This document shows, piece by piece, positions 11,139-29,188 of a stretch of DNA of 45,169 nucleotides; within the stretch, counting starts at the first letter, position 1; each line of letters starts with the position of its first letter. The translations under genes and the position numbers were made by a program. Below the pieces are notes generated by a model. That model searched no databases. It saw only the letters and a program-made list of their open reading frames with translations, and was not told the origin of the DNA. Source of the stretch: an uncultured Oscillospiraceae bacterium (GTDB lineage: Bacteria; Bacillota; Clostridia; Oscillospirales; Ruminococcaceae); NCBI GenBank assembly GCA_949299455.1, contig CASGAN010000011.1:1-45169 (forward strand). Direction: 5' to 3'.

Positions 11139-11339
11139 AGACAGAAAGAAGAACGTGAAACCTTGTATCACAGATATCGCGAACCTATCGAATCTTTTAT
11201 CAAGCGGGATGAAACAAGAGCCTTTATCAGCTATCGCAGCGGAAGCAGCGGTCAAATGGCGGCGGAACATTGGCATGAGTGTGTGGAACTGCTCTATGTT
11301 TTTGGCGGTGCAGCCAGACAGACGGTCAATTCCGAAACT
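11139..11339 (+). pseudogene. Remnant of an AraC-family regulator N-terminal domain
   Basis: In the frame that continues past the metA stop codon there are about 67 codons that read like the start of an AraC cupin domain: a YREPIE segment, then HWHECVELLYVFGG, which matches the family's HWH-x4-E-x-x-Y pattern (compare HWHFCCEMVFVYRG in the AraC gene at 15 kb). The rest of the sensor domain and the whole DNA-binding domain are missing. The only possible start is a TTG at 11163 without a good ribosome site. The frame runs straight into the URO-D gene, so a deletion probably fused a regulator to the gene it once neighboured. Confidence 0.6.
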
Positions 11340-12362
11340 ATGAATCGTGTTTGCAGAACACCTGATTTTGAGAATCTCTTAAAAGTCTTGCGGCGTGAAA
11401 AACCAAGCCGTCCGACATTATTTGAATTTTCGTTAAACGACAATGTTTTTAAAGAACTGATTGGTGAGCGGCCGCAAACCGCTTCAGAAACTAAGCAGCT
11501 TTTTTATCTGGCAAAAGCGTTTGCCGCGTGTGGATATGATTATGTGAATACGTATGGATGCTCAATGACATTTTCGATTGCGAAAAAGACACAAAAGCAG
11601 ACCGTTTCGCTTAACGAGCATGCGTTGATTACAGATTGGGACTCTTTCTTTGCATATCCTTGGCCGGACCCTCAGGCATATGACTATTCCAAATTGGAAA
11701 AGATCGCACCGCTTCTTCCAGACGGAATGAAACTCATGATCTCGGGACCCGGCGGTGTACTCGAAAACGTGATTGATTTGATCGGATATGATAACTTGTG
11801 CATCATGCTGTATGATGATCCTGCGCTCTGTGAGGCGATTTTTAATAAAGTGGGAAGTATTCTGCTTGCTTATTACGAAAACTGCGTATGCTATGATACG
11901 GTAGGTGTCCTCATGCTGAATGATGACTGGGGATTTAAAACGCAGACGATGATTTCGCCAGACATGCTGCGAAAGTATATGTTCCCGTGGCACAAGAAGA
12001 TTGTTGCATTGGCGCATCGTCATCAAAAACCCGCGGTGCTTCATTCCTGCGGATGCTTGAACGATGTGATGGAAGATGTAATTGAAGATATGAAATTCGA
12101 CGGAAAGCATTCGTTTGAAGACAATATTGTGCCGGTAGAAGAGGCGTATGAGCGGTGGGGCGATCGGATTGCGATTTTAGGCGGTATTGATGTGGATTTT
12201 CTGGTTCGCTCCGATACGCAGTCGATCACAGCACGTGCAAAAGGTTTGCTCGAGCTCTCGAAAGAAAAAGGCGGTTATGCGCTTGGATCGGGAAACAGTA
12301 TTCCTGCATACATTCCAAATGAACATTATTTTGCAATGACATCTGCTGTCAATGAAGAATAA
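11340..12362 (+). CDS. URO-D family methyltransferase-like protein (HSCG type)
   Basis: A 340-residue (beta/alpha)8 protein of the uroporphyrinogen decarboxylase/MtaA-like superfamily, starting at the ATG at 11340, where family similarity begins (KVLRREKPSRPTLFEF). In corrinoid systems such proteins move methyl groups between a substrate or thiol and a cobalamin protein. It has the zinc-type motif LHSCG (His235, Cys237), AILGGIDVDFL near 290 and the end block GSGNSIPAYIP near 320. It closely resembles the first URO-D gene of the operon at 16 kb, suggesting duplication. It has no clear ribosome site; the frame is open upstream through an AraC remnant to TTG 11163, so it may be made as a 399-residue fusion. 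True haem-pathway UroD is unlikely, since the zinc motif and context differ. A strong terminator follows. Confidence 0.8.
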   Translation: MNRVCRTPDFENLLKVLRREKPSRPTLFEFSLNDNVFKELIGERPQTASETKQLFYLAKAFAACGYDYVNTYGCSMTFSIAKKTQKQTVSLNEHALITDWDSFFAYPWPDPQAYDYSKLEKIAPLLPDGMKLMISGPGGVLENVIDLIGYDNLCIMLYDDPALCEAIFNKVGSILLAYYENCVCYDTVGVLMLNDDWGFKTQTMISPDMLRKYMFPWHKKIVALAHRHQKPAVLHSCGCLNDVMEDVIEDMKFDGKHSFEDNIVPVEEAYERWGDRIAILGGIDVDFLVRSDTQSITARAKGLLELSKEKGGYALGSGNSIPAYIPNEHYFAMTSAVNEE

Positions 12363-14945: not shown

Positions 14946-14976
14946 CCCGGTATCTGTGCGGATACCGGGAATTTTT
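14940..14976 (-). terminator. AraC gene terminator
   Basis: CCCGGTATC pairs with GATACCGGG around a 6-nt loop (14946-14969). T-rich tracts lie on both sides, TTGCTTTTT on the minus strand. It follows the AraC stop codon directly and overlaps the copZ -35 element. Confidence 0.75.
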
Positions 14977-15856
14977 ATTTGTTTGTATGTGCCTGCCGAT
15001 AGGAGAGCGGCGTTGTGCCGGTGAGTTTTCTGAAAATGCGGCTGAAGTAGCAGGGGTCATGATAGCCGCATGCTTCTGAAATAATTGCCATCGGTTCGTT
15101 GGTATTTGTGAGCATATGCTGTGCATAGGAGATGCGGACGTGATTGACATAATCGGTAAACGTCTTTCCGTAGAGCCGTTTGAATTTGACCGCGAAATTG
15201 CTGTAACTTAAATGGCAGAATTCCAATGCGGTATCGATCAATGAATCCTCATAAAAATGTGTTGCAATATATTGTAAGAGCATATTGAACTGTTTTGTTT
15301 CTTTTTTTGAGAGCATATTGCCCGGTACAATCGATGGAAACGGCGTCAGCGTATCGCATAGGACAGACATCAGCATACAAATTGCATGACGCATTCGAAG
15401 CTGAAATCCATGGGAACGCGTTTCCGTTTCAGAAAGCAGGAGATCGAGGTAGGGTTGTACATCGGAAAGCGCATGTTCAAATGTCAAACAGCGATAGCCG
15501 CTCTCTGTTAAAAACGGGGACCAATACTCCTGCTCGATGTCGAATACTTTTTGAGAAAGGAGCAAAGAGGTGTCAAACTTTAAAAGTACAATTTCTGAAC
15601 AATCCGCACCGTTTACAAATTCGTGTACCTGCTGCGGATGGATATAGATGATGTCACCGGGATTGAGTACGAGCGTTTTTCCGCCGATGTTGACAAGCTC
15701 TCTTCCTCTGTACACAAACACCATTTCACAGCAGAAATGCCAGTGCAGAAGCGATGTGGTGTCTTTGATGGGATTGATTGAATGCAGGCACTCAATGGGG
15801 TAATTCGGAATCTGGTTTGTTGATTCGGGATTTTCAAGAAAAATGGACTCTGGCAC
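14975..15856 (-). CDS. AraC family transcriptional regulator
   Basis: A 293-residue activator with an N-terminal cupin domain (LLHWHFCCEMVFVYRG and the HPQQVHEF histidines) and a C-terminal pair of helix-turn-helix motifs (about residues 190-290; first helix pair DTALEFCHLSYSNFAVKFK, second AIISEACGYHDPCYFSRIFR). I chose the GTG at 15856 because ACGGAG lies 9 nt upstream; an in-frame TTG 11 codons earlier has no ribosome site. It is transcribed away from the methyltransferase operon and shares its upstream region, so it is the likely activator of that operon, sensing a small molecule through the cupin. The ligand is unknown. Confidence 0.9.
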   Translation of the reverse strand: MPESIFLENPESTNQIPNYPIECLHSINPIKDTTSLLHWHFCCEMVFVYRGRELVNIGGKTLVLNPGDIIYIHPQQVHEFVNGADCSEIVLLKFDTSLLLSQKVFDIEQEYWSPFLTESGYRCLTFEHALSDVQPYLDLLLSETETRSHGFQLRMRHAICMLMSVLCDTLTPFPSIVPGNMLSKKETKQFNMLLQYIATHFYEDSLIDTALEFCHLSYSNFAVKFKRLYGKTFTDYVNHVRISYAQHMLTNTNEPMAIISEACGYHDPCYFSRIFRKLTGTTPLSYRQAHTNK

Positions 15857-15898
15857 AAAAATCACTCCGTTTAAAAAAGAATAGTCCAAAAATCAAAG

Positions 15899-16043: not shown

Positions 16044-17120
16044 ATGGAAATTATCCGCTACAAAGATTTTGAGCCGGATTACCGCAACATTGTCAAGGTT
16101 GCAAACAATGAATGGGTGGATCGTGTTCCGCTTTACGAGCACTTGGTCGGCGAAAAAGTGATTCGTGAAACAACGGGCACACGGCCGTTTGACTTAATGT
16201 TTTCCAAAGATATGGCAGAGAGCCGCGAGGGCTTCCGTCAATATTGGGACTTTTTTAAACAGATGGGCTATGATACTGCATCGATGGAGTTTTCAAGCTG
16301 CGGCATTTTGATCGACGGCGGCGCGCTTGGCGCACACAAAGAAGGTGCTATCAAAACGCGCGAGGATTTTGAAAAATATCCGTTTGACGAGCTGCCAACA
16401 CGCTTTTTTGACGCGTATGCACCATATATGCGTAATTTTGCCGAGACTTGCCCGGCAGGAATGAAAGCAATCGGCGGTGTAGGCAACGGTTTGTTTGAAA
16501 CAGTGCAGGATCTGGTCGGTTACATGGATCTTTGCTTTATGAAAAGCGATGATGAAGAACTGTATGCCGATTTGTTCAAAAAACTCGGTGATGTGCACGC
16601 ACAGATCTGGAAACGATTCCTCGATGAATTTTCCGATGTGTTCTGTGTCTGCCGGTTCGGCGATGACTTAGGTTTTAACACCATGACCTTGCTGTCTACC
16701 GAAGATATTCGTGAGCACATCCTTCCGCAGTACCGCCGGATCACCGATATGGTGCATGCAAAAGGAAAACCGTTCTTGTTGCATTCGTGCGGAAATCTGT
16801 TTAAAGTATTTGATTCGATTATTTCAGAAGCGAACATCAATGCAAAACACTCAAACGAGGATGGCATTGCACATTTCTCTGTTTGGGTCGAAAAATACGG
16901 CGACAAAATCGGCAACTTCGGCGGTATTGATACCGATGTGCTGTGCCGCAAAACACCGCAGGAAATCCGCGAATATGTGCTTGACTGCTTAGAGCGTGTC
17001 AAAGGACACGGCGGTATTGCGTTCGGTTCGGGCAACTCGATTCCTGACTATGTTCCGACCGAGGGATATCTTGCGATGGTGGATACCGTTCGTGAATGGC
17101 GCGGCGACAAACGCGCATAA
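16044..17120 (+). CDS. URO-D family methyltransferase-like protein 1 (HSCG type)
   Basis: A 358-residue (beta/alpha)8 protein of the URO-D/MtaA-like superfamily, first gene of the methyl-transfer operon. The zinc-type motif LLHSCG gives His247 and Cys249; NFGGIDTDVL near 293 and GSGNSIPDYVP near 334 follow. It resembles vanillate O-demethylase-type (MtvB/OdmB) methyltransferases in family, so transfer of a methyl group from a substrate to the corrinoid protein is a fair guess. It is the closest relative in the window of the gene at 11.3 kb. AGAGGTG lies 8 nt before the ATG. A haem-pathway role is unlikely given the context. Confidence 0.85.
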   Translation: MEIIRYKDFEPDYRNIVKVANNEWVDRVPLYEHLVGEKVIRETTGTRPFDLMFSKDMAESREGFRQYWDFFKQMGYDTASMEFSSCGILIDGGALGAHKEGAIKTREDFEKYPFDELPTRFFDAYAPYMRNFAETCPAGMKAIGGVGNGLFETVQDLVGYMDLCFMKSDDEELYADLFKKLGDVHAQIWKRFLDEFSDVFCVCRFGDDLGFNTMTLLSTEDIREHILPQYRRITDMVHAKGKPFLLHSCGNLFKVFDSIISEANINAKHSNEDGIAHFSVWVEKYGDKIGNFGGIDTDVLCRKTPQEIREYVLDCLERVKGHGGIAFGSGNSIPDYVPTEGYLAMVDTVREWRGDKRA

Positions 17121-17141
17121 GAAAAAAGAGGCGAAACATTT

Positions 17142-17675
17142 ATGGATTACAGCAAACTGGTTGAACTTGTAAAAGAAATCGGCTTCACCGATGCGGCGCT
17201 CATTTCTCCAAGCGATCTTATGCCGCTTACTGAAGTGCGGAATATGTGCGCAGTGGATCGCTGCGGCGCATACGGCAGAAAATGGAGCTGTCCGCCGTAC
17301 TGTGGCACACTCAGCGAATGCACCGACCGGATTCAGTCCCGCACACAGGGCATTGTGATGATTTCTGTTACAAAGCTTGAGGATTCCTTTGATTTAGAGG
17401 GAATGGAGGCTGCGGGAGAAGCGCATCAGAAGCTGTTTGCAAAGGCGGCGGACGAACTGCGCAAAGAGTTCCCGGATCTTTTGCCGCTTGGCGCAGGCGG
17501 ATGCACCACCTGTGAAACGTGCACCTGCCCGGATGCACCGTGCCGTTTTCCGGAAAAGCTTGTCGTTCCGATGGAGGCATATGGCCTGCTTGTGAGCGAT
17601 GTATGCAACCGCTGCGGCTTAAAATATTATAACGGCGAATCAACGGTTACCTATGTTTCGTGCATCGTTGTCTGA
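17142..17675 (+). CDS. DUF2284 Cys-rich metal-binding protein
   Basis: A 177-residue soluble protein of the DUF2284 family with many paired cysteines: NMCAVDRCGAYGRKWSCPPYC (in pieces, residues 36-55) and GGCTTCETCTCPDAPC (124-139), then CNRCG near 157. The spacing suggests iron-sulfur clusters or another metal site. Such genes often stand beside corrinoid activators or methyltransferases, which is the case here (21 bp after URO-D 1 and 31 bp before RACo). It may pass electrons to RACo or help handle the cofactor; this is inference from context. Confidence 0.85.
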   Translation: MDYSKLVELVKEIGFTDAALISPSDLMPLTEVRNMCAVDRCGAYGRKWSCPPYCGTLSECTDRIQSRTQGIVMISVTKLEDSFDLEGMEAAGEAHQKLFAKAADELRKEFPDLLPLGAGGCTTCETCTCPDAPCRFPEKLVVPMEAYGLLVSDVCNRCGLKYYNGESTVTYVSCIVV

Positions 17676-17706
17676 GCGTTAACCAATCTATTCCGGAGGA
17701 ACATTC

Positions 17707-19245
17707 ATGTTTATCGCAAAAATTCAAAACGGCGGCACACAAACCACCGTTGAATTTTCAAAGGAAACACTTCTTTCCGATTTTACAGAACCGTTTTCTG
17801 TCCCGATGCCCTGCGGCGGCAATCATACCTGCGGCAAATGCAAGGTACGTGCCGAGGGGGCGCTTTCTCCGCTGACCGAAGCGGAAAAACGCCGCTTGAC
17901 AAAAGAAGAAATTGCTTCTGGTATTCGGATGGCTTGTGCGGCTTCGGCAGTTGGAGACTGCACCATTACCATTTTGCAGAGCAAACAGGATGATCGTTCT
18001 GTGATGCTCGATGGTACGAAAAAAGCGGTTGCACAAGAGGGCGTTGGCATTGCAGTCGATATCGGAACAACGACGATTGCGGTTTACACCTATCAAAACG
18101 GTGAGCGGGTTCGCGCGATTGGCGAGCACAATAAACAAGGTACATTCGGTGCGGATGTCATTACACGTATCGGTGTAAATGAGCCGCAGACACTGCATCA
18201 GACGATCGTGTCGCAGCTTGACACACTGTTTCATCGTGCGATCGATCAAATTGCAGTACCGAGCGAAGTCAAACGGATTGTCATCACCGGCAACACAACA
18301 ATGCTCCACTTTTTCTATGGATATGATCCAGCACCGCTTTCAGTTTCGCCGTTTCGGACGGTCTCATTGTTCGATGAGGAACAGCCCGCAGCTAAATGGT
18401 TTCCTGCATATGAAAATGCAGTGCTTTATCTGCCGCCGTGCATTTCGGCGTATGTGGGTGCCGATATGGTGTGCGCAATGGAAGCCGCTGACTTTTTGAA
18501 TGGGAAAAAGACAGCGATTCTTGCCGATATCGGCACAAACGGTGAAATGGCACTTGTCCATAATGGCCAGCTTGTCACCTGTTCGACTGCGGCAGGACCG
18601 GCGCTCGAGGGCGCATGTATCCGCCAGGGAATGCCGGCAGGTGCAGGTGCAATCGACAATGTCTTTTTGAATGCGGACAAGACGATCGGCTATCATGTGA
18701 TCGGAGAAGAAGCACCGCAGGGACTTTGCGGAAGCGGACTCATCCGGCTGATGGCACTGCTTGTTGAGCTAGAAATTGTCGATGAAATGGGCGCAATCAA
18801 CGAAGAATGCGGCGTATATGAATCGCTTATCGATGAGGATGACGAGGGACTGCTTGTCCGGATTGGTGACAGCGGCATCGTGTTGACACAGCGTGATATC
18901 CGTCAGATTCAGCTTGCAAAAGCGTCGATCTGTGCCGGAATCCTCACAATGCTGCACCACTGTGGTGTGTCAGCCGACGAAGTGGAGACCTTTTATATCT
19001 GCGGCGGCTTCGGAAGCTATATTGATCCGAAGGCTGCAGCAACCATTGGATTGATTCCGGCTTCGTTGGCAGACTGTGTCAATGTACTCGGCAATGCGGC
19101 CGGTACAGGCGCTGCCGATCTTCTGAGCGAGAGCGGTCGTGAAAGTGCACGCTCGATTGCAAAACAGGCACATATCATCGAGCTTTCGGAAAGTCCGTTT
19201 TTCATGGATCAGTACGTCGAGCAGATGAGCTTTTATACCGAATAA
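17707..19245 (+). CDS. RACo-type corrinoid activation protein (2Fe-2S ferredoxin + ASKHA)
   Basis: A 512-residue reductive activator of corrinoid proteins. The N-terminal plant-type [2Fe-2S] domain has Cys36, Cys42, Cys45 (CGGNHTCGKC) and Cys77. The following ASKHA-fold DUF4445 domain begins at about residue 112 with GIAVDIGTTTIAVYTY and includes LADIGTNGEMAL and ICGGFGSYID. RACo proteins use ATP to drive an electron onto inactive Co(II) of a corrinoid protein, restoring Co(I). Here the corrinoid protein is encoded 65 bp downstream. It is shorter than RACo proteins of about 630 residues, lacking the linker region between ferredoxin and ASKHA domains. AGGAGG-like GGAGG precedes the ATG by 7 nt. 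Confidence 0.93.
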   Translation: MFIAKIQNGGTQTTVEFSKETLLSDFTEPFSVPMPCGGNHTCGKCKVRAEGALSPLTEAEKRRLTKEEIASGIRMACAASAVGDCTITILQSKQDDRSVMLDGTKKAVAQEGVGIAVDIGTTTIAVYTYQNGERVRAIGEHNKQGTFGADVITRIGVNEPQTLHQTIVSQLDTLFHRAIDQIAVPSEVKRIVITGNTTMLHFFYGYDPAPLSVSPFRTVSLFDEEQPAAKWFPAYENAVLYLPPCISAYVGADMVCAMEAADFLNGKKTAILADIGTNGEMALVHNGQLVTCSTAAGPALEGACIRQGMPAGAGAIDNVFLNADKTIGYHVIGEEAPQGLCGSGLIRLMALLVELEIVDEMGAINEECGVYESLIDEDDEGLLVRIGDSGIVLTQRDIRQIQLAKASICAGILTMLHHCGVSADEVETFYICGGFGSYIDPKAAATIGLIPASLADCVNVLGNAAGTGAADLLSESGRESARSIAKQAHIIELSESPFFMDQYVEQMSFYTE

Positions 19246-19310
19246 CATCAGCGTGATGCTGAGTTATATATTAACACGAAAAAATTTTTATTCAGAAAGG
19301 ATCATGTATT

Positions 19311-19940
19311 ATGAGCACAACATTAGTAGAACTGAGCGAATTCCTCCAGAAAGGCAGAGTAAAAAACGTTAAAGAGCTCGTCCAGAAAGCACTCGACGAA
19401 GGCATTGCACCGAACGTGATTCTCGAAGAAGGCCTGCTGAGCGGTATGTCCGTTGTCGGCGAAAAATTCAAGAAAAACGAAGTATTCGTTCCGGAAGTTC
19501 TGATCGCAGCACGTGCTATGAATGCCGGCACCACCATGCTCAAACCGTACCTTGTACAGGAAGGCGTTGAGAGCAAAGGCACCGTTGTCATCGGCACTGT
19601 TAAAGGTGACCTGCACGATATCGGCAAAAACATCGTAAAAATGATGATGGAAGGCAAAGGCATGAACGTTATCGATCTGGGTGTTGACGTTTCTGCTGAG
19701 CAGTATGTTCAGGCTGCAAAAGAGAACGATGCAGATATCATCGCTTGCTCCACACTGCTGACCACCACTATGGGTGAGATCAAAAACGTTGTTGACCTCG
19801 TCAAAAAAGAAGGCATTCGTGCAAAAGTCATGATCGGCGGCGCACCTGTTACTCAGGATTTCTGCGACAGCGTGAATGCAGATTCCTACACACCGGATGC
19901 AGCAACCGCAGCTGAAGTTGCAGTTGGTTTCTGCTCGTAA
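19311..19940 (+). CDS. Corrinoid (B12-binding) methyltransferase carrier protein
   Basis: A 209-residue carrier of the MtaC/MtbC/MtvC class. The N-terminal helical cap (about 1-85) is followed by a Rossmann B12 domain with D-x-H-x-x-G at Asp100, His102 and Gly105 (GDLHDIGKNIV); His102 is the lower cobalt ligand. STLLTTTM near 147 and GGAPVT near 177 line the nucleotide tail. It is the only corrinoid protein in the window, so all five URO-D proteins of the operon presumably share it. The raw sequence of this gene looks strongly codon-biased (AAA, GAA, CTG, GTT), suggesting high expression. AGAAAGGAT precedes the ATG. Confidence 0.95.
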   Translation: MSTTLVELSEFLQKGRVKNVKELVQKALDEGIAPNVILEEGLLSGMSVVGEKFKKNEVFVPEVLIAARAMNAGTTMLKPYLVQEGVESKGTVVIGTVKGDLHDIGKNIVKMMMEGKGMNVIDLGVDVSAEQYVQAAKENDADIIACSTLLTTTMGEIKNVVDLVKKEGIRAKVMIGGAPVTQDFCDSVNADSYTPDAATAAEVAVGFCS

Positions 19941-19966
19941 TTTAAGAAAAGGGAGGAGACGGAACC

Positions 19967-20929
19967 ATGGCTGATACCCATAAACAACGATTTGAAAAAG
20001 CGCTTCGGCGCGAACCGATCATCGGTCATGTTCCGCAGTTTGAACTCGTCTTTTTCCTGACAATGGAAGCGTTTGGGAAGGTACACCCTTCCCATCGTTT
20101 TTATGAGCAGTGGAATCAGATGTCTTATGCGGAGCAGAAACTTCACATTGAAGAAATGGCTGATATCTATATCATGACAGCACAGCGCTACAATCATGAT
20201 GCGATTTTTGTTCATCCGAATCCGGGTGATCTCGAAAATACAAAATGGCTGCTCGAAACGATCCGTGAAAAAACAGGCGATGAGTATTTCCTGATGATGC
20301 ACGGCGATACAACGGTAAGCATTCCGACCGGCGATGACATGATCGATTTTTCGGTGAGAATGTATGAAGATCCGGACAGCATTCACGATCAGCAGAAACG
20401 CTGGCAGGAAGATGCAGCAAAACGTGCAGCAGCACTTTCGGGTACTGGTCTGCTCGACGGTTTTGCACTCTGCTCGGACTACGCATTTAACGTCAATCCG
20501 TTCTTCTCGCCGGATATCTTTGCGGAACTCGTTGCACCGCATTTGAAAGAATGCATCGATACATACAGAAGCCTCGGCTTCTATACAATCAAACACACCG
20601 ACGGCAACATCAATCCGATCCTTGATCAGATTGTGGACTGCGGCCCGGACGCTGTGCATTCGATCGATCCGCAGGGTCACATGAACCTGCTTGAAGTCCG
20701 CCAAAAATACGGCGACCGTGTCTGCACGATCGGCAACGTCAACTGCGGTCTTCTGCAGACCGGTACAGTGGAAGAGGCAGAAGCAGATGTTCGCCGCTGC
20801 ATCCGTGAAGGTATGGCAGAGGGATATGGCTTCATTTTCTCTACCTCTAACTGTGCGTACACCGGACTGCCGCTCGAGCGTTACGAGCTGATGCAGAAAA
20901 TCTGGCGTGAAGAAGCAATCTACCGTTAA
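19967..20929 (+). CDS. URO-D family protein 2 (HTDG type)
   Basis: A 320-residue URO-D superfamily protein. The usual His-x-Cys zinc motif is replaced by KHTDGN, giving His210 and Asp212; a Cys (Cys260 in IGNVNCGLL) lies about 48 residues later. The C-terminal block FSTSNCAYTGLP also has a Cys. It lies 26 bp after the corrinoid gene with GGGAGGAG upstream of the ATG. In this superfamily the Cys ligands bind zinc that activates a thiol; loss of Cys suggests a different substrate, metal or mechanism, for example methyl transfer without a thiol acceptor. This is inference. Confidence 0.82.
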   Translation: MADTHKQRFEKALRREPIIGHVPQFELVFFLTMEAFGKVHPSHRFYEQWNQMSYAEQKLHIEEMADIYIMTAQRYNHDAIFVHPNPGDLENTKWLLETIREKTGDEYFLMMHGDTTVSIPTGDDMIDFSVRMYEDPDSIHDQQKRWQEDAAKRAAALSGTGLLDGFALCSDYAFNVNPFFSPDIFAELVAPHLKECIDTYRSLGFYTIKHTDGNINPILDQIVDCGPDAVHSIDPQGHMNLLEVRQKYGDRVCTIGNVNCGLLQTGTVEEAEADVRRCIREGMAEGYGFIFSTSNCAYTGLPLERYELMQKIWREEAIYR

Positions 20930-20954
20930 GAGAGAGTAAGGAGAGCAAAGAACT

Positions 20955-22001
20955 ATGAATGCAATGGAACGCGTCACCGCGATGCTTTCTCACAAAGAAG
21001 TGGACAGAATCCCGGTGTATCCGATTCTCTCAGGCGTTACCCGCAAATTGGTGGGCGCAACGTATGAAGAATGGGCGACAAACGCAGATGTCTGCGCAGA
21101 TGCACTGTACAAGGCAGTGAAACAGTTTGACTTAGATGGTGTTGTCACGCTCATTGACTTGTCTGTTGAATGCGATGCATGGGGTCAGAAACTGATTTTC
21201 CATGAAAACGATGCACCGCATCCGGATTATTCGCAGTCTGTCATTCAGGACATCGAAGACTACGCAAAAATCAAAAAAGCAGACTACAAACAGTCCAAAC
21301 GCATGATGATGCACATTGAGGTGTGTCGTCAGCTTGTAGAGAAAGCAAACGGTGAGTTCCCGGTGACTGCGTTTGTGTTCGGCCCGCTCGGTACGCTTTC
21401 GATGCTTCGCAACCAGGAAGACATGTATATGGATCTGTATGATGATCCGGACGCTGTCAAAGAAGCAGTGGGCGAAGTCACAGAAACGCTCAAAGACTAT
21501 GTGAATGCATTGATTGACACAGGCATTCAGGGTGTGATGTTTGATACCTTGTTTGCTTCCGGTACAATTATGTCGAAAGATATGTGGATCGAGATGGAGA
21601 GTGACGCAATCAAAGTGCTTGCGGATGTTTGTCATGAACGCGGTGTGCTGGTTATGATTCACAACTGCGGTGAAAAACCGTATTTTGATGCACAGATTGA
21701 AGCGACCAATCCGATTGCGTTCTCCTTCCTGCATCCGCCGGCAGACTGTGCTGATTTTGCAGAATGCAAAGAAAAATACGGCAAGACATTGGGTCTTATC
21801 GGCTGTGTGCCGCCGCCGATGGTGGTTACAAGCACCGATGAAGCATGGGTCGAAGAATGCAAGCGTCAGATTGACATTTTCGGTAAAGACAGCGGTTATA
21901 TGCTGGCAACCGGCTGTGAATATCCGTCCGGCTCTGATTTCAGAAAAGCCGAACTGATGGTCGAAGTTGCAAAAACATACACCCCTTACAAAGAAGCGTA
22001 A
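20955..22001 (+). CDS. MtaA/MtbA-like methylcobamide methyltransferase (URO-D family, HNCG type)
   Basis: A 348-residue protein and the most MtaA/MtbA-like of the group. It has H-x-C at His236/Cys238 (MIHNCGE) and a third candidate ligand at Cys321 (LATGCEYP), matching the His-x-Cys...Cys zinc site of methylcobamide:thiol methyltransferases. The N-terminus MNAMERVTAMLSHKEVDRIPVYP (in pieces) is typical of MtaA-like proteins. It could therefore be the acceptor-side enzyme moving methyl from the corrinoid protein to a thiol. Coenzyme M is not expected in Clostridia, so the acceptor would be another thiol; this is inference. AAGGAGAG lies 10 nt before the ATG. Confidence 0.87.
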   Translation: MNAMERVTAMLSHKEVDRIPVYPILSGVTRKLVGATYEEWATNADVCADALYKAVKQFDLDGVVTLIDLSVECDAWGQKLIFHENDAPHPDYSQSVIQDIEDYAKIKKADYKQSKRMMMHIEVCRQLVEKANGEFPVTAFVFGPLGTLSMLRNQEDMYMDLYDDPDAVKEAVGEVTETLKDYVNALIDTGIQGVMFDTLFASGTIMSKDMWIEMESDAIKVLADVCHERGVLVMIHNCGEKPYFDAQIEATNPIAFSFLHPPADCADFAECKEKYGKTLGLIGCVPPPMVVTSTDEAWVEECKRQIDIFGKDSGYMLATGCEYPSGSDFRKAELMVEVAKTYTPYKEA

Positions 22002-22016
22002 AGGAACGATAGGATT

Positions 22017-23033
22017 ATGGAACGTACCTCAAGACAGCTTGTATTAGACACGCTGAATTTTAAAAATACAGACGGCCGTGTTCCGCGTCAGATCTGGACA
22101 CTGCCGTGGGCGGAGTTTACATATCCCGAAATGATGAAAAAAATCCGCGAGGATTTCACATGGGATTTTGACGGCCCGCAGACAACGTATGAAGCACTTC
22201 CGAAAACACAGGGCGACCCGTATGAGGTTGGCACCTATGTGGATGAATGGGGATGCATTTTTACAAATATCCACAGAGGCATCATCGGTGAGGTCAAAGA
22301 ACCGCTCGTCAAAGATGATGACTGGGAAGATGTGGGCAATGTCCACATTCCGGAGGAATTTTTGACATTTGATATCGACCAGGTCAATGCGTCGTATCAT
22401 GCATCGGATAAATTTATGATGGCTGGCTGCTGCCCGCGTCCGTTTGAGCAGCTTCAGTTTATCCGCGGTACCGTCAATCTCTACATGGATTTGATGGACC
22501 CGCCGAAGAAAATGCTCGAATTCATGGAGAAAATGCACGACTTTTACTGCCGTCTGCTCACCAAATGGGCACAGACAGACGTCGATGCACTCAATATGAT
22601 GGATGACTGGGGTTCACAGCAAGCACTGCTGATTAACCCGGCGCTGTGGGATGAGTATTTCCGTCCGATGTACCGTGACTATATCGACATTGCACACAAA
22701 CACGGCAAAAAAATGTTCATGCACTCGGACGGCTACACGCTCGACATCATTCCGCGTTTGATTGACATCGGACTCGATGCAATGAACAGCCAGATTTTCT
22801 GCATGGGTGTTGATAAACTCAAACAGTTTAAAGGCAAAATCACCTTCTGGGGTGAGATTGACCGTCAGCACCTGATTCCGGAGGGAACACCGGAGCAGAT
22901 CGAAAACGCAGTCAAGAGCGTTTACGAGAATCTCTGGGACAACGGCGGATGTATCGCACAGTGCGAGTTCGGCCCGGGCGCAAATCCGGACAACGTTTAC
23001 CGCATCTTCAAAACGTGGGAATCGCTTCGGTAA
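22017..23033 (+). CDS. URO-D family protein 3 (HSDG type)
   Basis: A 338-residue URO-D superfamily protein. In the metal-motif position it has MHSDGY (His236, Asp238) in place of His-x-Cys. A GCCPRPFEQLQF block near 137-148 and GGCIAQCEFGPGANPDNV-like end (quoted in part) follow the family layout. It sits 15 bp after the MtaA-like gene and so is translated from the same transcript. The Asp-type motif groups it with proteins 2 and 4. A substrate-binding methyltransferase role is likely; the substrate is unknown. Confidence 0.82.
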   Translation: MERTSRQLVLDTLNFKNTDGRVPRQIWTLPWAEFTYPEMMKKIREDFTWDFDGPQTTYEALPKTQGDPYEVGTYVDEWGCIFTNIHRGIIGEVKEPLVKDDDWEDVGNVHIPEEFLTFDIDQVNASYHASDKFMMAGCCPRPFEQLQFIRGTVNLYMDLMDPPKKMLEFMEKMHDFYCRLLTKWAQTDVDALNMMDDWGSQQALLINPALWDEYFRPMYRDYIDIAHKHGKKMFMHSDGYTLDIIPRLIDIGLDAMNSQIFCMGVDKLKQFKGKITFWGEIDRQHLIPEGTPEQIENAVKSVYENLWDNGGCIAQCEFGPGANPDNVYRIFKTWESLR

Positions 23034-23073
23034 GAGATACAGGGAGAGCGAAAGATGAACAATCGCGATTTTT

Positions 23074-24168
23074 TTGACGCTGAACCGGCAGATTATCCGC
23101 GGCGAAGCAAACGGTAAAGTACTCTGGCAGCCGCGTATCATTTGCTGGTATGCTGACCGGCAGTACCGCAATGAGCCGCTTCCTGCACCGTATACCGGTA
23201 TGAGCATTCGGGAGCTTTATGATGCACTCGATTGTTCGAATCGTATCTATGACTATAACGAAGCGGTCAAGCTGATTGAAGATCCGTCGATCAAGCGGTA
23301 TTCAAAGCAGCTGGATGAACTGCGGACACAGCATTTCATCGAAACCCCTGAGGGTACGATTGACTGTATCTTAAAAAAGAACCGTTCAAACTACGGCGAG
23401 TTTTTTGAAAAATGGTGGGTCGAAGACCAAAAGGACATGGAAGTTCAGATGTACATTGAAGCACATCAGGACTATGTGTTCGATGAGGAAGCCTATAACC
23501 GGATCTATGAGATCTGGGGCAACAACGGCTTAGGTTCGATCTATTTCCCGCGCATCAATGTACAGTCGCTGTTTAACGACACCATGGGTGTTGAGGGTGG
23601 TATTTTTGCATTGATGGATATGCCGGACGTCTGTGAGGAATATTTTAAAATTAAGAGCCAGAACCATGACCGTTTCATCAAGATGATTGAAACGAGCAAG
23701 TTCGAATGGATCAACTTCGGTGATAACGTGCACTGTGCAACGCTTCCGCCGTCGCTGTTTGAGCAGTATGTACTGCCGGAATATCAGCACCGCAACGAGC
23801 TTCTGCACAAGCAAGGACAGTTCACGTTTGCGCACTGGGACGGCGATACCAAGGCAATTTTGAAATATGCAAAAGAGACCGGATTGGACGGCATTGAAGC
23901 GGTAACACCGAAACCGCAGGGCGATGTGACACTCAAGGAAATCAAAGAAGCATTCGGCGATGACGTGTACTTGGTGGACGGCATTGCAGCGCTTTTGTTT
24001 GATGAGATGTATTCGATTGAGATGCTCAAAGAGCAGACCGAGCAGATTATCGACATGTTTGCCGGACAGCTGATTCTCGGTATTTCGGATGAGATGTCTT
24101 CGACAGGCAACATCGACAGGATTAAATATGTTGGCGAGATTGTGGATCGTCACAATGCACGCTGTTAA
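23074..24168 (+). CDS. URO-D family protein 4 (HWDG type), start disturbed by a T-run
   Basis: A 364-residue open frame of the URO-D superfamily with AHWDGD (His254, Asp256) in the metal-motif position; last gene of the operon, ended by a strong terminator. The open frame begins at a TTG (23074) without a ribosome site. An ATG at 23055 with GGGAGAG 6 nt upstream is the natural start, but it is one base out of frame: after seven codons there is a run of seven T (23069-23075 region), and six T would join the ATG to this frame. Either the true gene begins at 23055 and the run differs by one base (sequence error or real mutation), or slippage at the T-run restores the frame. The body of the protein is intact. 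Confidence 0.78.
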   Translation: MTLNRQIIRGEANGKVLWQPRIICWYADRQYRNEPLPAPYTGMSIRELYDALDCSNRIYDYNEAVKLIEDPSIKRYSKQLDELRTQHFIETPEGTIDCILKKNRSNYGEFFEKWWVEDQKDMEVQMYIEAHQDYVFDEEAYNRIYEIWGNNGLGSIYFPRINVQSLFNDTMGVEGGIFALMDMPDVCEEYFKIKSQNHDRFIKMIETSKFEWINFGDNVHCATLPPSLFEQYVLPEYQHRNELLHKQGQFTFAHWDGDTKAILKYAKETGLDGIEAVTPKPQGDVTLKEIKEAFGDDVYLVDGIAALLFDEMYSIEMLKEQTEQIIDMFAGQLILGISDEMSSTGNIDRIKYVGEIVDRHNARC

Positions 24169-24228: not shown

Positions 24229-24999
24229 TTATTGTTTCTTCTTTCGTACATATGTACGAACGGCAGTTTTGAGTTTTTCCATTGCTTCCGGATACCGCTT
24301 GGACTGTATCTGCGGAAATGCGCGCAGAACGCGGCGTTCGAGCGCATGCGTATCTGTCTGCATTCGCTCAAGCTGTGCGCGGAGCTCCGCAACAGCAGCA
24401 GAAGCCTGTGCACGCTGTTCCTCCCGCATCGTTTTAACCGTTTGATGGAACGATTCTGCGGCGGCCTGCATCTTTTGGATGTGACCGTTGACCCGCAGGA
24501 AGGTGTATACAGTGATCAGACAGTCGCTGAACAAGATTCCGCATAAAAATCCGCCCAACAGCCCGAGCCAGAGTGTTGGCAGTGCTTCGATATACCGTGC
24601 AAACAGCGGATGAATCCACAAATCAAGCACAACGCATAAAAGCCCGAACAGCACGCTGTTGCGCAAGCATACGCGCCCGTGCAGATTTAATATCCGCTTC
24701 GAATAATCCCACAGCTTCATGTGGAAAATGGTTTCCAACAGCCAGCCGGTCACATATTCGAGGGCACTTGTTAAAACGGCGCCCACGAAAAAGATAAGCA
24801 GCGGGTTGCCGTGGAGCGGACGCAGAGCACTCAGCACAAGCAGCGCGCCGAATCCATATACCGGGCAGAGCGGCCCGTTTAAGAAGCCGCGGTTGACAAG
24901 CTTTTTTGCACCGATCGAACAATAGACTGTTTCACACATCCAGCCTAAGATGCTGTAGCAAAAAAAGTACAATACCCAGCAGACAATCAGATTCCACAT
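24229..24999 (-). CDS. CmpB-type membrane protein (putative ABC transporter permease, PF06541)
   Basis: A 256-residue protein with about five membrane helices in its first 165 residues and a charged, heptad-like coiled coil at about 175-230 on the cytoplasmic side. The family pattern is clear: YSILGWMCETVYCSI near residue 15-29, NRGFLNGPLCPVYGFG near 36-51 and LEYVTGWLLE near 82. The family was named as an ABC permease on weak grounds and its function is unproven. The start overlaps the end of the dehydratase-like gene by 13 nt, so it is the third gene of that operon. GGAGG lies 5 nt before the ATG. Confidence 0.85.
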   Translation of the reverse strand: MWNLIVCWVLYFFCYSILGWMCETVYCSIGAKKLVNRGFLNGPLCPVYGFGALLVLSALRPLHGNPLLIFFVGAVLTSALEYVTGWLLETIFHMKLWDYSKRILNLHGRVCLRNSVLFGLLCVVLDLWIHPLFARYIEALPTLWLGLLGGFLCGILFSDCLITVYTFLRVNGHIQKMQAAAESFHQTVKTMREEQRAQASAAVAELRAQLERMQTDTHALERRVLRAFPQIQSKRYPEAMEKLKTAVRTYVRKKKQ

Positions 25000-26276
25000 G
25001 TGTCCTCCTTGTTTGTAAGCTGCTCTTTTGCAACGGCGAGCATCAATTTGATACGGTTTTCCTGGTTGACACGGGTTGCACCGGCATCATAGTCGATTGC
25101 AACAATGTTTGCTCGCTCGTCGATTTCGCGGATTTTGCGGATCATACCTTTTCCGCAGATGTGATTCGGCAGACAGCCGAACGGCTGTGTGCAGACGATA
25201 TTTTCATAGCCCATTTCCACAAGCTCGAGCATCTCTGCTGTCAAAAGCCAGCCTTCCCCCATTTTATCACCGTAGCCAATCACACCTTTGACGAGCGATT
25301 TTGTGTGCTGATACGGCGACGGCGGGATAAACTGCGGCGCTTCCTTGATGCTTTCAATCAAAATGGATTCGAGCGCCTCGCAGTAACGCATCAGCTTGTT
25401 GACCACGAAAAACTTGAGTTTACTGCCGCCATAGAGCTTGATATCCTCTAATCGGTTATCCACCTTAAACAGTGCGAACGATAAAATGCCCGGCAGATTG
25501 ACTTCGCAGTCCTGTGATGCCAGAAAATCCTCGAGGTTGTTGTTGCCGAGGCTTGCGTATTTGACGTAGATTTCGCCGACCACACCGACTTTCACTTTCG
25601 GTGTGCGGCAAACCGGCACATTTGCAAAATCCGCCACAATCTGTTTGAGTGTTTCGCGGATCTCCTTTTTGGAGCAGCCTTCGCCTTTGTTTAATTTTTT
25701 GACAAGATAGTCGGTCCAATGATCGACGAGTGCGTCCGTTTGACCATCGTTTTGTTCATACGGCTTTGTCTGGTTTTTCAACAGCATCAGTGCGTCACCA
25801 TAGACAATCGCACCAACAACACGGCGGATGATCGGCAGTGTGAGCTTGAATCCCGGGTTTTTCTCCATGCCCGAGAGGTTTACAGAGACAACCGGAATGT
25901 GTTCGAGTCCCGCTTTTTTAAGCGCCTTGCGCAAAAGATAAATATAGTTGGACGCACGGCAGCCGCCGCCCGTCTGGGTAATCATCAGCGCCACCTTATC
26001 AAGGTCGTATTTTCCGCTCTGAAGCGCGTGAATCAGCTGTCCGATGACCAGAATTGCCGGATAGCAGGTGTCGTTGTGGACATATTTGAGTCCCGTCTGT
26101 GCAATCTCCGGACCAGTTGTTGTGAGCAGTTCCGGATGATAACCGAAATGACGGAATACGTTGCCTAAAATCGTGAAGTGGATCGGCGCCATCATCGGAA
26201 ACAGAAGCGTGTATTCACGTCTCATTTCCTTTGTAAAGAGCAGCCGTCCTGTTTTATCATAGATCAGTTTTGCCAT
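24987..26276 (-). CDS. 2-hydroxyacyl-CoA dehydratase-like protein (HgdB/DUF2229-linked family)
   Basis: A 429-residue protein of the HgdB/FldB-like superfamily that holds Fe-S clusters in radical dehydratases and in double-cubane cluster proteins. Conserved Cys-containing blocks are YVHNDTCYPAILVIGQ (about 65-80), TQTGGGCRASNY (100-111) and CTQPFGCLPNHICGKG (366-381). It is encoded directly after (11 bp) the large ASKHA activase that would donate electrons, a two-gene split of the activase/dehydratase fusion seen in many anaerobes. No CoA-transferase, acyl-CoA dehydrogenase or second dehydratase subunit lies nearby, so it is probably not a fermentation dehydratase. ATP-driven low-potential reduction of some substrate is a better guess. 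Confidence 0.87.
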   Translation of the reverse strand: MAKLIYDKTGRLLFTKEMRREYTLLFPMMAPIHFTILGNVFRHFGYHPELLTTTGPEIAQTGLKYVHNDTCYPAILVIGQLIHALQSGKYDLDKVALMITQTGGGCRASNYIYLLRKALKKAGLEHIPVVSVNLSGMEKNPGFKLTLPIIRRVVGAIVYGDALMLLKNQTKPYEQNDGQTDALVDHWTDYLVKKLNKGEGCSKKEIRETLKQIVADFANVPVCRTPKVKVGVVGEIYVKYASLGNNNLEDFLASQDCEVNLPGILSFALFKVDNRLEDIKLYGGSKLKFFVVNKLMRYCEALESILIESIKEAPQFIPPSPYQHTKSLVKGVIGYGDKMGEGWLLTAEMLELVEMGYENIVCTQPFGCLPNHICGKGMIRKIREIDERANIVAIDYDAGATRVNQENRIKLMLAVAKEQLTNKEDTCGI

Positions 26277-26287
26277 AGTATGCCTCC

Positions 26288-29188
26288 TCAGCGTCCGATT
26301 GCCGCAAACAAACTGCGCAGGCGGATCGTCACCGCGCCAAGGTTTGAAATTTCGTCAATTTTAATCTGGGTATAAATTTTTCCGTTTCGCTCTAAGATGT
26401 CGCGGACCTCATCGGTCGTGATCGCATCGACACCGCATCCGAACGAAACGAGCTGCACCAGTTCCATGTCGGGCTGGGTGCTCACATAATCAGCCGCCGC
26501 ATACAGCCGCGCATGATAGGTCCATTGGTTCAAAACATTTCGTTTTGTCTTTTTGGCGTGTACACTCAGCACATCCTCCGAAATGACCGTTGCACCAAAG
26601 CTTGTGATGAGCTTGTCAATACCGTGGTTGATTTCCGGGTCAACATGATACGGTCTTCCCGACAGTACGATGATCTGGCGGTTTTCGCTGCGCGCCTGTG
26701 CGATCATCTCTTCGCCTTTTTTGCGGATATCCAAAAGATATGCGTCATATTCCGCATAGGCAGCCGTTGCTGCATCCTGTACTTCTTTTAATGTGATGTC
26801 CGAGAAGTACTGCGATAAAACAGCGTGCATCTTTTTGGGAAAATCCTTTTTGCGGTGAATGCCGACATAGTCTTTAATGAGCATTTTTCCCTGAAGCGAC
26901 GCCATATTTGCGCCGATCACTTCCGGATAATACGCAACGACCGGGCAGTTATAGTGGTTGTCGCCTAAGTGCTCGTCGAAGTTATACGACATGCACGGAT
27001 AGAAAATGGTGTCAATGCCTTCGTCAATGAGGGCTTGCACATGGCCGTGCATCAGCTTTGCCGGATAACACACCGTATCCGACGGAATCGTCTGCTGACC
27101 GTTTGTGTAGAGTGCACGGCTCGACACCGGCGAGCGATGCACTTTAAACGATAGTTTTGTAAAAAAAGTATGCCAGAACGGGAGCAGTTCATACATGTTC
27201 AGTCCCATTGGGATGCCGATTGTGCCGCGCTTACCTTCTACAGGCGCATAGGAGAACAGTTTTTGCCGTTTATATGCGTAGAGATTGCGTTCATCCGACG
27301 AAGCGGCTTTTGTCACCGGACGTTCACAGCGGTTGCCGCCGATGAACTTTCTGCCGTCGTGGAAGGTGTTTACAGTCAGACGACAGTGATTGTTGCACAA
27401 TCCGCAGGTTACAACGCGGATGTCGTGCGTGAATTCTGCAAGCTCTTTCTGAGAAATGATCGTGCTTTTTTGATCCTTCTGTGCTTTCTGTTTTGCATAC
27501 AATGCCGCACCGTATGCACCCATCAATCCCGAAATATCCGGACGGATGACTTCGGTGCCGATTTCCTGTTCAAATGCACGCAGAACCGCGTCGTTTAAAA
27601 ACGTGCCGCCCTGGACCACGATTTTTTTGCCGAGTTCACCCGGAGACGATGCACGAATGACTTTATACAGTGCGTTTTTGACAACGGCCAGTGACAGTCC
27701 GGCGGAAATATCCTCGATGGATGCGCCGTCTTTCTGCGCCTGTTTGACCGATGAGTTCATAAATACTGTGCAGCGGGAGCCGAGATCGACCGGCTTTTTC
27801 GCGAGCAGTCCGAGTTTTGAAAATTCCTCCGGAGAGTAGTGGAGCGCGTTTGCAAACGTCTGCAAAAACGAACCGCATCCGGATGAGCATGCTTCGTTTA
27901 AAAAGATGTTGTCGATGGCACCGTTGTGAATTTTAAAGCACTTGATATCCTGGCCGCCGATATCGATGACAAACTGCACATCCGGCAAAAACGATTTTGC
28001 CGCCGTAAAATGCGCCACCGTTTCGACAATGCCATAATCGGCGCAAAACGCACTGCGGATCAGCTCTTCACCATAGCCGGTAACGGCTGCGGCTGCAATC
28101 TGAATATCCGGTTTTTGCTCGTATAATTCGGTTAAAAAGGTACGGATCAGCGGGACAGGATTGCCGCTGTTGGGCAGATAGACCTCGTGCAGAAGCTCGT
28201 TATGTTCACCCATTACAACGGCTTTGACTGTTGTAGAGCCGGCATCAATGCCGATGTACGTTTTGCCGTGATAGCTTAAAAGATCGCCGCGCGGTGCACG
28301 GCAGCGGTTATGGCGCGTCAAAAAGGTATCATACTCCGCCTGATCGGAAAACAGCGGCGCGCGGTAGGAGAAGTTTCCTTTTGCCTGATAATGTGCGATG
28401 GCGTCGGATGCTTTTTTAAGGTCAATGGACTGATCGGCACAGAATGCCGCGCCGATTGCCACATAGTAAAGCGAATTTTCCGGACAAACGCCGGTTGTAT
28501 GAAGTGCTTCGTCAAAGCTTTGGCGAAGCGAAGAAGAAAAGGTGAGCGGTCCGCCTAAGTACACGATATTTCCTGTAATTTCCCGGCCTTGTGCCAATCC
28601 TGCGATTGTTTGGCTTACCACCGCGTTATAAATGCTCGCAGCAACATCCGGTTTGCGCGCACCCTGATTCAAAAGAGGCTGAATATCGGTTTTCGCAAAC
28701 ACGCCGCAGCGGGATGCAATCGTATATGTTTTTTCTTTTTGTTTTGCAAGTGTGTCGAGTTCTTCGGGCGTAACGTTTAAAAGAGAAGCCATCTGATCGA
28801 TAAATGCGCCGGTTCCGCCGGCACATGAGCCGTTCATGCGTACTTCCAGCCCGTTTGTCAAAAACAGGATTTTTGCATCTTCACCGCCCAGCTCAATGAC
28901 CACATCTGTGTTCGGAAGCAGACGGTTGACGCAGACACGCGCCGCATATACTTCCTGTACAAACGGAATGGCTGCGTTTTCTGCAATACCGATTCCCGCA
29001 GAACCGGAAATTGCAAGATATGCTTCCTGCTGTTCCGGAAACCGGCTGCGAATTTTTGCAAGCAGCTGTCCGCAGCTTTCAATAATCTGCGAAAAATGAC
29101 GCTCATATGATTGATAAATAAAATGGTTCTGATCGTCTAATACAACGCATTTAATCGTAGTTGATCCGATGTCCAATCCGATTCTCAC
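26288..29188 (-). CDS. Acyl-CoA dehydratase activase, double ASKHA domain plus DUF2229
   Basis: A 966-residue ATP-dependent electron donor. Two BcrAD/BadFG-type ASKHA domains lie in tandem: the first starts GLDIGSTTIK (residue 3) and carries the cluster Cys of SCAGGTGAF (about 125), the second starts YIGIDAGSTTVK (about 311) and carries SSGCGSFLQTFA (about 435). A Cys-rich hinge, TCGLCNNHCRL (about 600), and a DUF2229 domain (about 650-950) follow. Such activases use ATP to push an electron through a [4Fe-4S] cluster into a partner, here the 429-residue protein encoded next. The start is GTG with GGAGGG 5 nt upstream; a good promoter precedes it. Confidence 0.92.
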   Translation of the reverse strand: MRIGLDIGSTTIKCVVLDDQNHFIYQSYERHFSQIIESCGQLLAKIRSRFPEQQEAYLAISGSAGIGIAENAAIPFVQEVYAARVCVNRLLPNTDVVIELGGEDAKILFLTNGLEVRMNGSCAGGTGAFIDQMASLLNVTPEELDTLAKQKEKTYTIASRCGVFAKTDIQPLLNQGARKPDVAASIYNAVVSQTIAGLAQGREITGNIVYLGGPLTFSSSLRQSFDEALHTTGVCPENSLYYVAIGAAFCADQSIDLKKASDAIAHYQAKGNFSYRAPLFSDQAEYDTFLTRHNRCRAPRGDLLSYHGKTYIGIDAGSTTVKAVVMGEHNELLHEVYLPNSGNPVPLIRTFLTELYEQKPDIQIAAAAVTGYGEELIRSAFCADYGIVETVAHFTAAKSFLPDVQFVIDIGGQDIKCFKIHNGAIDNIFLNEACSSGCGSFLQTFANALHYSPEEFSKLGLLAKKPVDLGSRCTVFMNSSVKQAQKDGASIEDISAGLSLAVVKNALYKVIRASSPGELGKKIVVQGGTFLNDAVLRAFEQEIGTEVIRPDISGLMGAYGAALYAKQKAQKDQKSTIISQKELAEFTHDIRVVTCGLCNNHCRLTVNTFHDGRKFIGGNRCERPVTKAASSDERNLYAYKRQKLFSYAPVEGKRGTIGIPMGLNMYELLPFWHTFFTKLSFKVHRSPVSSRALYTNGQQTIPSDTVCYPAKLMHGHVQALIDEGIDTIFYPCMSYNFDEHLGDNHYNCPVVAYYPEVIGANMASLQGKMLIKDYVGIHRKKDFPKKMHAVLSQYFSDITLKEVQDAATAAYAEYDAYLLDIRKKGEEMIAQARSENRQIIVLSGRPYHVDPEINHGIDKLITSFGATVISEDVLSVHAKKTKRNVLNQWTYHARLYAAADYVSTQPDMELVQLVSFGCGVDAITTDEVRDILERNGKIYTQIKIDEISNLGAVTIRLRSLFAAIGR

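Follow-up and report, generated by a model that had tools for sequence, protein, structure and literature searches.

A corrinoid operon with five URO-D proteins and one His-Cys-Cys member as a candidate modular methyl-transfer system in an uncultured Oscillospiraceae bacterium

Gene content and organization of the operon

The window analysed here, i.e. the whole stretch of 45,169 nucleotides from an uncultured Oscillospiraceae bacterium (assembly GCA_949299455.1, contig CASGAN010000011.1, positions 1 to 45,169), harbours an operon on the plus strand which runs from position 16044 to 24168 in the order UroA, DUF2284, RACo, CorP, UroB, UroC, UroD and UroE (Table 1). An initial annotation made from the sequence alone had described this locus as one corrinoid carrier with a RACo-type activase, a DUF2284 protein and five proteins of the URO-D superfamily, with an AraC gene reading away from it. 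Open frames and Pfam matches confirmed both the gene content and the divergent orientation of the regulator, and the intergenic gaps among the eight genes measure 15 to 65 bases. The statement that no system of this shape had been described was too strong, since ‘mlp gene clusters’, defined in the relevant passages of Kountz & Balskus (2023; PMC10418091) as at least two MtaA-like URO-Ds with a corrinoid protein and an activase but no folate methylase, are already on record, though the window differs from their type 1 (see below).

Table 1. Positions of the operon genes, the predicted zinc ligands of UroC and related features in the window
Feature	Position	Strand	Evidence and remarks
UroF, UroA-type URO-D outside the operon	11340..12362	+	Pfam 79.9 bits; ATG start likely, authors' choice
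AraC-family regulator (Cupin_2/AraC_binding + HTH_18)	14975..15889	-	Pfam; divergent from operon; kept in G007, G002 and G076
UroA, URO-D protein	16044..17120	+	Pfam URO-D 66.9 bits; candidate substrate enzyme
DUF2284, predicted metal-binding protein	17142..17675	+	Pfam 149 bits
RACo-type reductive activase of corrinoid protein	17707..19245	+	Pfam RACo_C_ter 235 bits, Raco_middle 118, Fer2 24
CorP, corrinoid methyl carrier	19311..19940	+	Pfam B12-binding_2 + B12-binding
UroB, URO-D protein	19967..20929	+	Pfam 68.7 bits; candidate substrate enzyme
UroC, URO-D protein	20955..22001	+	Pfam 174.8 bits; candidate methyl-CorP:thiol methyltransferase (acceptor)
UroC His236-x-Cys238 codons, first two zinc ligands by homology	21660..21668	+	Alignment A1
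UroC Cys321 codon, third zinc ligand by homology	21915..21917	+	Alignment A1
UroD, URO-D protein	22017..23033	+	Pfam 57.5 bits; candidate substrate enzyme
UroE, URO-D protein, most divergent	23074..24168	+	TTG start behind T7 run; candidate substrate enzyme

The nearest solved structure to CorP is 1y80 (E 4.5e-53). UroE scores 19.9 bits against the Pfam model, i.e. below the cut-off of 23.9, but its family profile matches that of the UroC family with an hhalign probability of 97.7 (E 1.4e-12, 300 columns). Its TTG start is formed by the end of a run of seven T (23069-23075), which shifts UroE out of frame with an ATG at 23055 and could be either a sequencing slip or a phase-variable start. In the relative Merdimmobilis hominis An559, six T stand in front of UroE and the ATG frame reads through.

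Zinc triads and phylogeny of the URO-D proteins

At the columns of the MtaA-type zinc ligands, UroC is the sole member of the operon's five URO-Ds with a His-Cys-Cys triad (H236, C238 and C321). UroA reads H-C-N (LHSCG...GSGNS), UroB H-D-N (KHTDG...TSNC) and UroE H-D-D (AHWDG...GISDE), and UroD begins with H-D (MHSDG) and has no Cys in the third aligned column. The third-position Asn of UroB and Asp of UroE are invariant within their own small families, as are the H-x-C and the third Cys of UroC in the 18 rows of alignment A1, which were chosen for this triad. The complete H-x-C...C of UroC aligns with CmuA and with three URO-Ds of an mlp-like cluster of Acetoanaerobium, and its H-x-C also with an MtaA fragment, which ends before the third ligand.

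The phylogenetic relationship was estimated from 55 hand-picked rows out of 138 aligned, by a quick search in which long branches were flagged and one join of the UroE clade was marked as possibly false. UroC falls into a branch of 25 rows (SH-aLRT 95) that includes the MtaA fragment, CmuA and the three His-Cys-Cys proteins of Acetoanaerobium; within this branch it belongs to a sub-branch of 18 cluster proteins (SH-aLRT 87) and lies outside the sub-branch uniting the three kinds of reference. UroA, UroB, UroD and UroE are found in another branch (SH-aLRT 80) together with UroF, which groups with UroA (support 100). CmuA and the Acetoanaerobium cluster came from a plasmid search, one Acetoanaerobium ORF (open reading frame) having been dropped in an earlier tree, and the three Acetoanaerobium proteins stood in for the true Mlps, ClMlp1-3.

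A sequence search of solved structures matched UroB and UroC to the MtaA structure 4ay7; it returned nothing relevant for UroA and UroD, and no match for a URO-D of 408 amino acids (aa) from the related locus L137. Against curated models UroC remains below every cut-off, with 105 bits for PRK06252 (cut-off 244), 67.7 for MtaA (400) and 66.3 for MtbA (600).

Conservation of the operon in relatives

Conservation of the gene set, a check suggested with the initial annotation, was borne out: the full set of eight genes recurs in unchanged order, next to a divergent AraC, in two genomes of the same genus (G007 and G002) and in one of another genus (G076), which is more than chance. A contig of G007 matches NZ_JACJKY010000020 of M. 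hominis An559; the host genus includes M. hominis, and Merdimmobilis is placed within the Oscillospiraceae in the NCBI taxonomy. Between G076 and the window, the URO-Ds are 85-92 % and CorP 95 % identical, as against 65 % for RACo, 70 % for DUF2284 and 62 % for AraC, i.e. the carrier and the URO-Ds are held tighter than the service proteins. UroE of G002 is split into three frame pieces.

A further genome of the same genus (G003, locus L282) combines a UroD relative, 71 % identical to UroD of G076, with CorP, DUF2284, RACo and a His-Cys-Cys URO-D that is nearest to another sub-branch than that of UroC, and this composition suggests that parts are exchanged while the plan stays. Relatives of UroA are found in the CorP clusters L111, L113, L114, L125 and L227, and those of UroB both in CorP clusters (L194, L211 and L219) and without a nearby CorP (L058, L059 and L062). 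In the four loci of genus g115 (L111, L113, L114 and L125) a UroA-type URO-D lies near CorP, with a serpin gene between them in L111, and three of the four genomes gave no match to the UroC profile at E 1e-20.

One His-Cys-Cys URO-D per multi-URO-D cluster

We considered 138 CorP neighbourhoods picked by CorP similarity alone. Searching 394 genomes of the order supplied 60 of them, selected by hand with mostly the best matches first; a set of 80 named loci supplied 77, and G076 the last. L122 and L216 were dropped as having no CorP frame, which left 136 loci; L155-L157, being copies of L051, L054 and L052, were left out, with L051 and L054 uncounted and L052 added by hand as the one ortholog of the window. 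The number of URO-Ds per run includes fragments, and triads were typed in frames of 280-480 aa (79 URO-Ds).

At least one URO-D is present in the same-strand CorP run of 49 of the 136 loci and at least two in 27, and 87 loci have none. Exactly one His-Cys-Cys URO-D is found in the run of 24 of the 27 multi-URO-D clusters, and none of the 27 has two in the run. As to the remaining three, the His-Cys-Cys URO-D of L168 is on the opposite strand, and none was seen in L120 and L149, each of which is truncated by a contig edge. The second most frequent triad type is present in 14 of the 27, i.e. the partners of the UroC type vary. When the labels of the 79 typed URO-Ds on both strands were shuffled, 20,000 draws gave a mean of 11.2 and at most 22, never the observed count of 25, in a test which ignores the relatedness of loci; at 80 % CorP identity the 27 clusters form 17 groups.

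MtgA-like genes, probed with a MetH-like pterin domain, were found in none of the 49 loci whose run includes a URO-D and in six of the remaining 87 (one of these six, L226, has URO-Ds further off). DUF2284 lies in 20 of the 49 CorP runs with a URO-D vs 3 of the 87 without (Fisher p 5e-8, a value too small because the rows are related). The UroE query matched in 35 genomes, 12 of which were re-searched for CorP, a search that also took in two genomes without a UroE match: a free-standing CorP was found in 10 of the 12, and the drafts G006 and G086 have a match to the UroE query but no free-standing CorP.

Partners encoded elsewhere in the genome

The genome of the window (2.22 Mb, 99.76 % complete) contains 15 URO-D matches, of which 14 exceed the cut-off, and four B12-binding matches. 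Among the latter, CorP alone resembles a free-standing methyltransferase carrier, the other three being a MetH-like frame, a 601-aa frame resembling radical-SAM proteins by eye and a weak match in a 443-aa frame. No match to MtrH (PF02007), MttB (PF06253 MTTB) or MtaB (PF12176) was found in this genome; the lack of these enzymes, reported initially for the locus, therefore holds genome-wide, and no such partner, MtrH being among those proposed for a search, turned up elsewhere in the genome. The single match to the pterin-binding family PF00809 (contig C27) is an 801-aa frame, which looks like MetH because a B12-binding domain lies in the same frame. Acetogenesis was rejected, as the genome gave no match to CdhC (PF03598), other CODH/ACS models not having been searched, and selenium salvage is disfavoured, with a best SelD match of 42.9 bits vs a cut-off of 125 (SelA, SelB and SelC were not searched).

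Proposed methyl transfer and alternative explanations

Our data suggest that the products of the operon form a modular system for corrinoid-dependent methyl transfer, in which four substrate enzymes share one carrier, an activase and a thiol-directed acceptor; we assign this reading a probability of roughly 55 %. RACo, perhaps with DUF2284, would reduce CorP to Co(I). UroA, UroB, UroD and UroE would then each demethylate a substrate of its own, probably an ether or another hard-ligand methyl donor, and load the methyl group onto CorP; other URO-Ds of the genome perhaps do the same, with UroF as a possible client of this carrier. Finally, UroC would move the methyl group from CorP onto a thiol, i.e. 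homocysteine, another cell thiol or sulfide, a step that would replace the folate-linked acceptor enzyme of acetogens. We infer the direction of methyl flow, the acceptor, the substrates and the regulation by AraC; that DUF2284 possibly feeds electrons to the activase and that AraC senses a substrate is conjecture based on gene position. The initial annotation had offered either several substrates feeding one corrinoid or a thiol acceptor of the same fold, and both gain support, together, in that UroC bears the thiol-type triad and groups with MtaA and CmuA and the other four do not.

Several observations weigh against this scheme. The acceptor role of UroC is read from sequence, and folate could still be the acceptor. 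The triad calls rest on one alignment, with third positions that depend on it, and 9 of the 27 multi-URO-D clusters touch a contig edge. Outside these clusters the rule of one His-Cys-Cys member weakens, i.e. 11 loci have a single URO-D in the run which is not of this type, and when eight of their genomes were re-searched with the UroC-family profile at E 1e-20, four gave no match (G121, G146 and G164, all of one genus, and G316). An HNCG...SSGCD protein is encoded elsewhere in G403 and G181 (L244, a match with an internal stop, and L245) and an HICG...APGCE protein in G218 (L246), and in G246 the His is missing from the best match, an FVCG...SPGCD protein (L247). Locus L278 of G100 combines CorP and other URO-Ds with no His-Cys-Cys type within 19.5 kb, and L232 has two such URO-Ds on opposite strands. 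In the window's own genome, a second His-Cys-Cys URO-D (C38) falls into another tree branch than UroC, and a URO-D of UroC's branch (C5) has Phe replacing the His. Lastly, just residues 191-348 of UroC were found in M. hominis An559, the first 190 being absent, which may be real or an assembly fault.

As regards two of these proteins, the shortened UroC gene of An559 immediately follows what is left of the ribosome site that is present in the window (L051:12225-12310). The C5 URO-D (G000:C5; L002, L242:6128-7525) ends in a CxxC stretch that by eye resembles a thioredoxin domain; in L123, a protein of the C5 type directly follows CorP.

Among the alternatives, it is fairly unlikely that the operon serves the O-demethylation of methoxylated aromatics, with UroC or MetH passing the methyl group to tetrahydrofolate. 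Triads without a Cys pair would suit O-substrates, and an undiscovered folate methylase among the Mlps is named as a possibility, in the passages of Kountz & Balskus that treat them (PMC10418091); moreover, MtvB, OdmB and VdmB are assigned to the UroD superfamily in the corresponding part of PMC13222342. However, neither an MtgA-like partner nor CdhC was found in the searches above, and UroB alone matches CdmB (9rui), with E 6e-4. The comparison of CdmB with the UroB family profile gives 2.1e-8 over about 113 residues, in which CdmB lacks the H-x-D.

The same machinery could also act on O-methylated sugars or glycosides from plant glycans, which we consider improbable. Several neighbours point in this direction: GH31 lies behind the cluster of L190, GH95 before that of L209, GH42 beside that of L194, a heparinase-like protein before that of L128, CBM proteins behind that of L227 and GH4 beside a URO-D pair of L058, a locus without a nearby CorP. 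In the window's genome, four other URO-Ds are neighboured by RhaA with a class II aldolase, a melibiase-like protein (28.9 bits vs a cut-off of 27), a DUF3502 protein and a MalK-type ATPase, and upstream of UroF there is a gene resembling those of fucose isomerases. Nevertheless, these neighbours were picked by hand, gut bacteria are rich in sugar genes, and among the 18 neighbours scanned in the window's genome the majority show no connection to sugars, the non-sugar or family-less ones comprising a peptidase, an FkbM methyltransferase, DAC, YbbR, CNNM, AMP-binding and others. A comparison of 102 flanking ORFs from 25 of the 27 multi-URO-D loci with 102 from 22 of the 87 URO-D-less loci likewise did not reveal a clear excess of glycan-related families in the 25 listed of 159 and 169, with GH32 occurring twice in the multi-URO-D set. 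Sugar ethers as substrates are therefore a weak lead.

No more credible to us is a reversed role for UroC, i.e. that of an S-demethylase which loads CorP, the other URO-Ds spending the methyl group or acting elsewhere. Such enzymes can work in either direction, and the ClMlp2 assay, as published in PMC10418091, ran in the reverse of the proposed direction, but one near-invariant member with many varied partners better fits one acceptor and many donors. Finally, a type 1 mlp gene cluster as published, with all URO-Ds acting as S- or Se-methyltransferases in the salvage of methylated selenium or sulfur compounds, is very improbable: the core set is shared, no folate methylase lies nearby and UroC carries the His-Cys-Cys site, but both Mlp2 and Mlp3 would have to be SCMT-branch His-Cys-Cys proteins and one of the five URO-Ds qualifies, the tree with its stand-ins points to UroA, UroB, UroD and UroE outside the Mlp clades, and SelD stays far below its cut-off, even if some type 1 species also lack selenocysteine synthesis.

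AraC-CorP fusions and surrounding genes

Eight relatives encode an AraC regulator that continues in frame into CorP, giving proteins of 474-537 aa (L137:8525-10039, L120:5284, L149:3516, L144:7598, L152:8636, L209:9107, L121:7779 and L196:3225). The fusions were identified by BLAST in all eight and by Pfam in L137, and some of the loci are close kin. The fused AraC parts are 23-37 % identical to the AraC of the window over the aligned stretches. In six of the fusions, AAAGGAG precedes by a few bases an in-frame ATG where CorP starts, and the stretch retrieved contains no second CorP; in L121 and L196, whose runs include CorP also as a gene of its own, the fusions lack the AAAGGAG site. This suggests that the six fusions may yield two products from one gene, i.e. 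a regulator-carrier and a free carrier, and that AraC and CorP may be functionally tied. If working as its sequence suggests, such a fusion would be a direct sensor of the state of a methyl-transfer protein. Many other CorP genes, such as those of L163 and L180, follow an AraC protein of 420-450 aa with a long N-terminal domain, which we presume to be perhaps PocR-like.

It is tempting to speculate, although we hold it to be somewhat doubtful, that these loci represent a general bacterial pathway with one carrier, many donors and one thiol acceptor. Exchangeable URO-Ds, some encoded far from the operon, would load a single corrinoid protein from oxygen-bound, perhaps sugar, donors; a URO-D of the MtaA branch would end the pathway on a cell thiol, with neither coenzyme M nor a folate enzyme; and in some relatives the fusion of AraC and carrier could let the methyl load set transcription.

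In the window itself, UroF lies downstream of a gene resembling metA by eye, and the first 59 or so residues of its open frame (11163-11339) resemble, again by eye, part of an AraC/cupin protein, perhaps a regulator remnant. Downstream of the operon, the opposite strand (24229-29188) encodes a CmpB-like membrane protein, identified by Pfam, along with two large proteins that by eye seem related to 2-hydroxyacyl-CoA dehydratase activators; these genes are kept in G007 at 97-98 %. At the gathering threshold, one tRNA was the sole Rfam match in the window, the promoter scan gave 12 sites vs 10.0 expected, and 25 terminator-like sites were observed vs 9.1 expected.

Comparison with known systems

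With the O-demethylase and haloalkane systems (OdmB/MtvB/VdmB and CdmBCA), the operon shares a substrate enzyme of the URO-D superfamily, a corrinoid protein and an ATP-dependent activator. In contrast to these systems, it puts several URO-Ds on one carrier and lacks a dedicated tetrahydrofolate methyltransferase partner of the MtgA/CdmA type, the genome having a MetH-like protein only.

The methylcobamide:coenzyme M methyltransferases MtaA and MtbA of methanogens resemble UroC in zinc triad and family, and share with it the plan of one acceptor for several substrate enzymes, a single MtbA being used by several methylamine systems of methanogens. Unlike them, UroC scores below the model cut-offs, and its substrate enzymes would be URO-Ds rather than MtaB or MttB types; coenzyme M itself is an unlikely acceptor in this host.

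A third likeness is to the type 1 mlp clusters, the dominant mlp type according to the corresponding passages of PMC10418091, where S- or Se-methyl transfer is argued for mlp clusters, type 1 encodes at least Mlp2 and Mlp3 (His-Cys-Cys, SCMT branch), and selenocysteine synthesis is encoded in 87 % of type 1 species though not strictly required. Several URO-Ds, one corrinoid protein and one RACo/Ram activase are found here as there, on one strand, with no divergent gene between them and with gaps far below the 2 kb allowed, and no tetrahydrofolate methylase lies within 20 kb, a span of which the contig covers just 16 kb upstream. In contrast to type 1, UroC alone among the five URO-Ds falls into the MtaA branch, i.e. 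one URO-D rather than Mlp2 and Mlp3 represents the SCMT-like branch as marked by the Acetoanaerobium stand-ins, and even this one has the zinc triad but not the curated-model score of an SCMT member. The other four URO-Ds come from another branch and lack the His-Cys-Cys zinc sphere, and the window has DUF2284 in a genome with no SelD above the cut-off.

In our searches of the open-access literature we found no report of clusters with one His-Cys-Cys and several other URO-Ds, nor of an AraC-corrinoid fusion. Judged by gene content and predicted zinc ligands, the window and its relatives form a separate variant of the published mlp cluster plan. This gives a testable reading of many uncharacterized URO-D genes of gut Clostridia, i.e. 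a hub of one carrier and one acceptor with many substrate enzymes, and suggests a destination for the methyl groups in an organism without CdhC or a dedicated folate methylase. The single His-Cys-Cys member is a countable trait which sets such clusters apart from the published type 1 mlp clusters.

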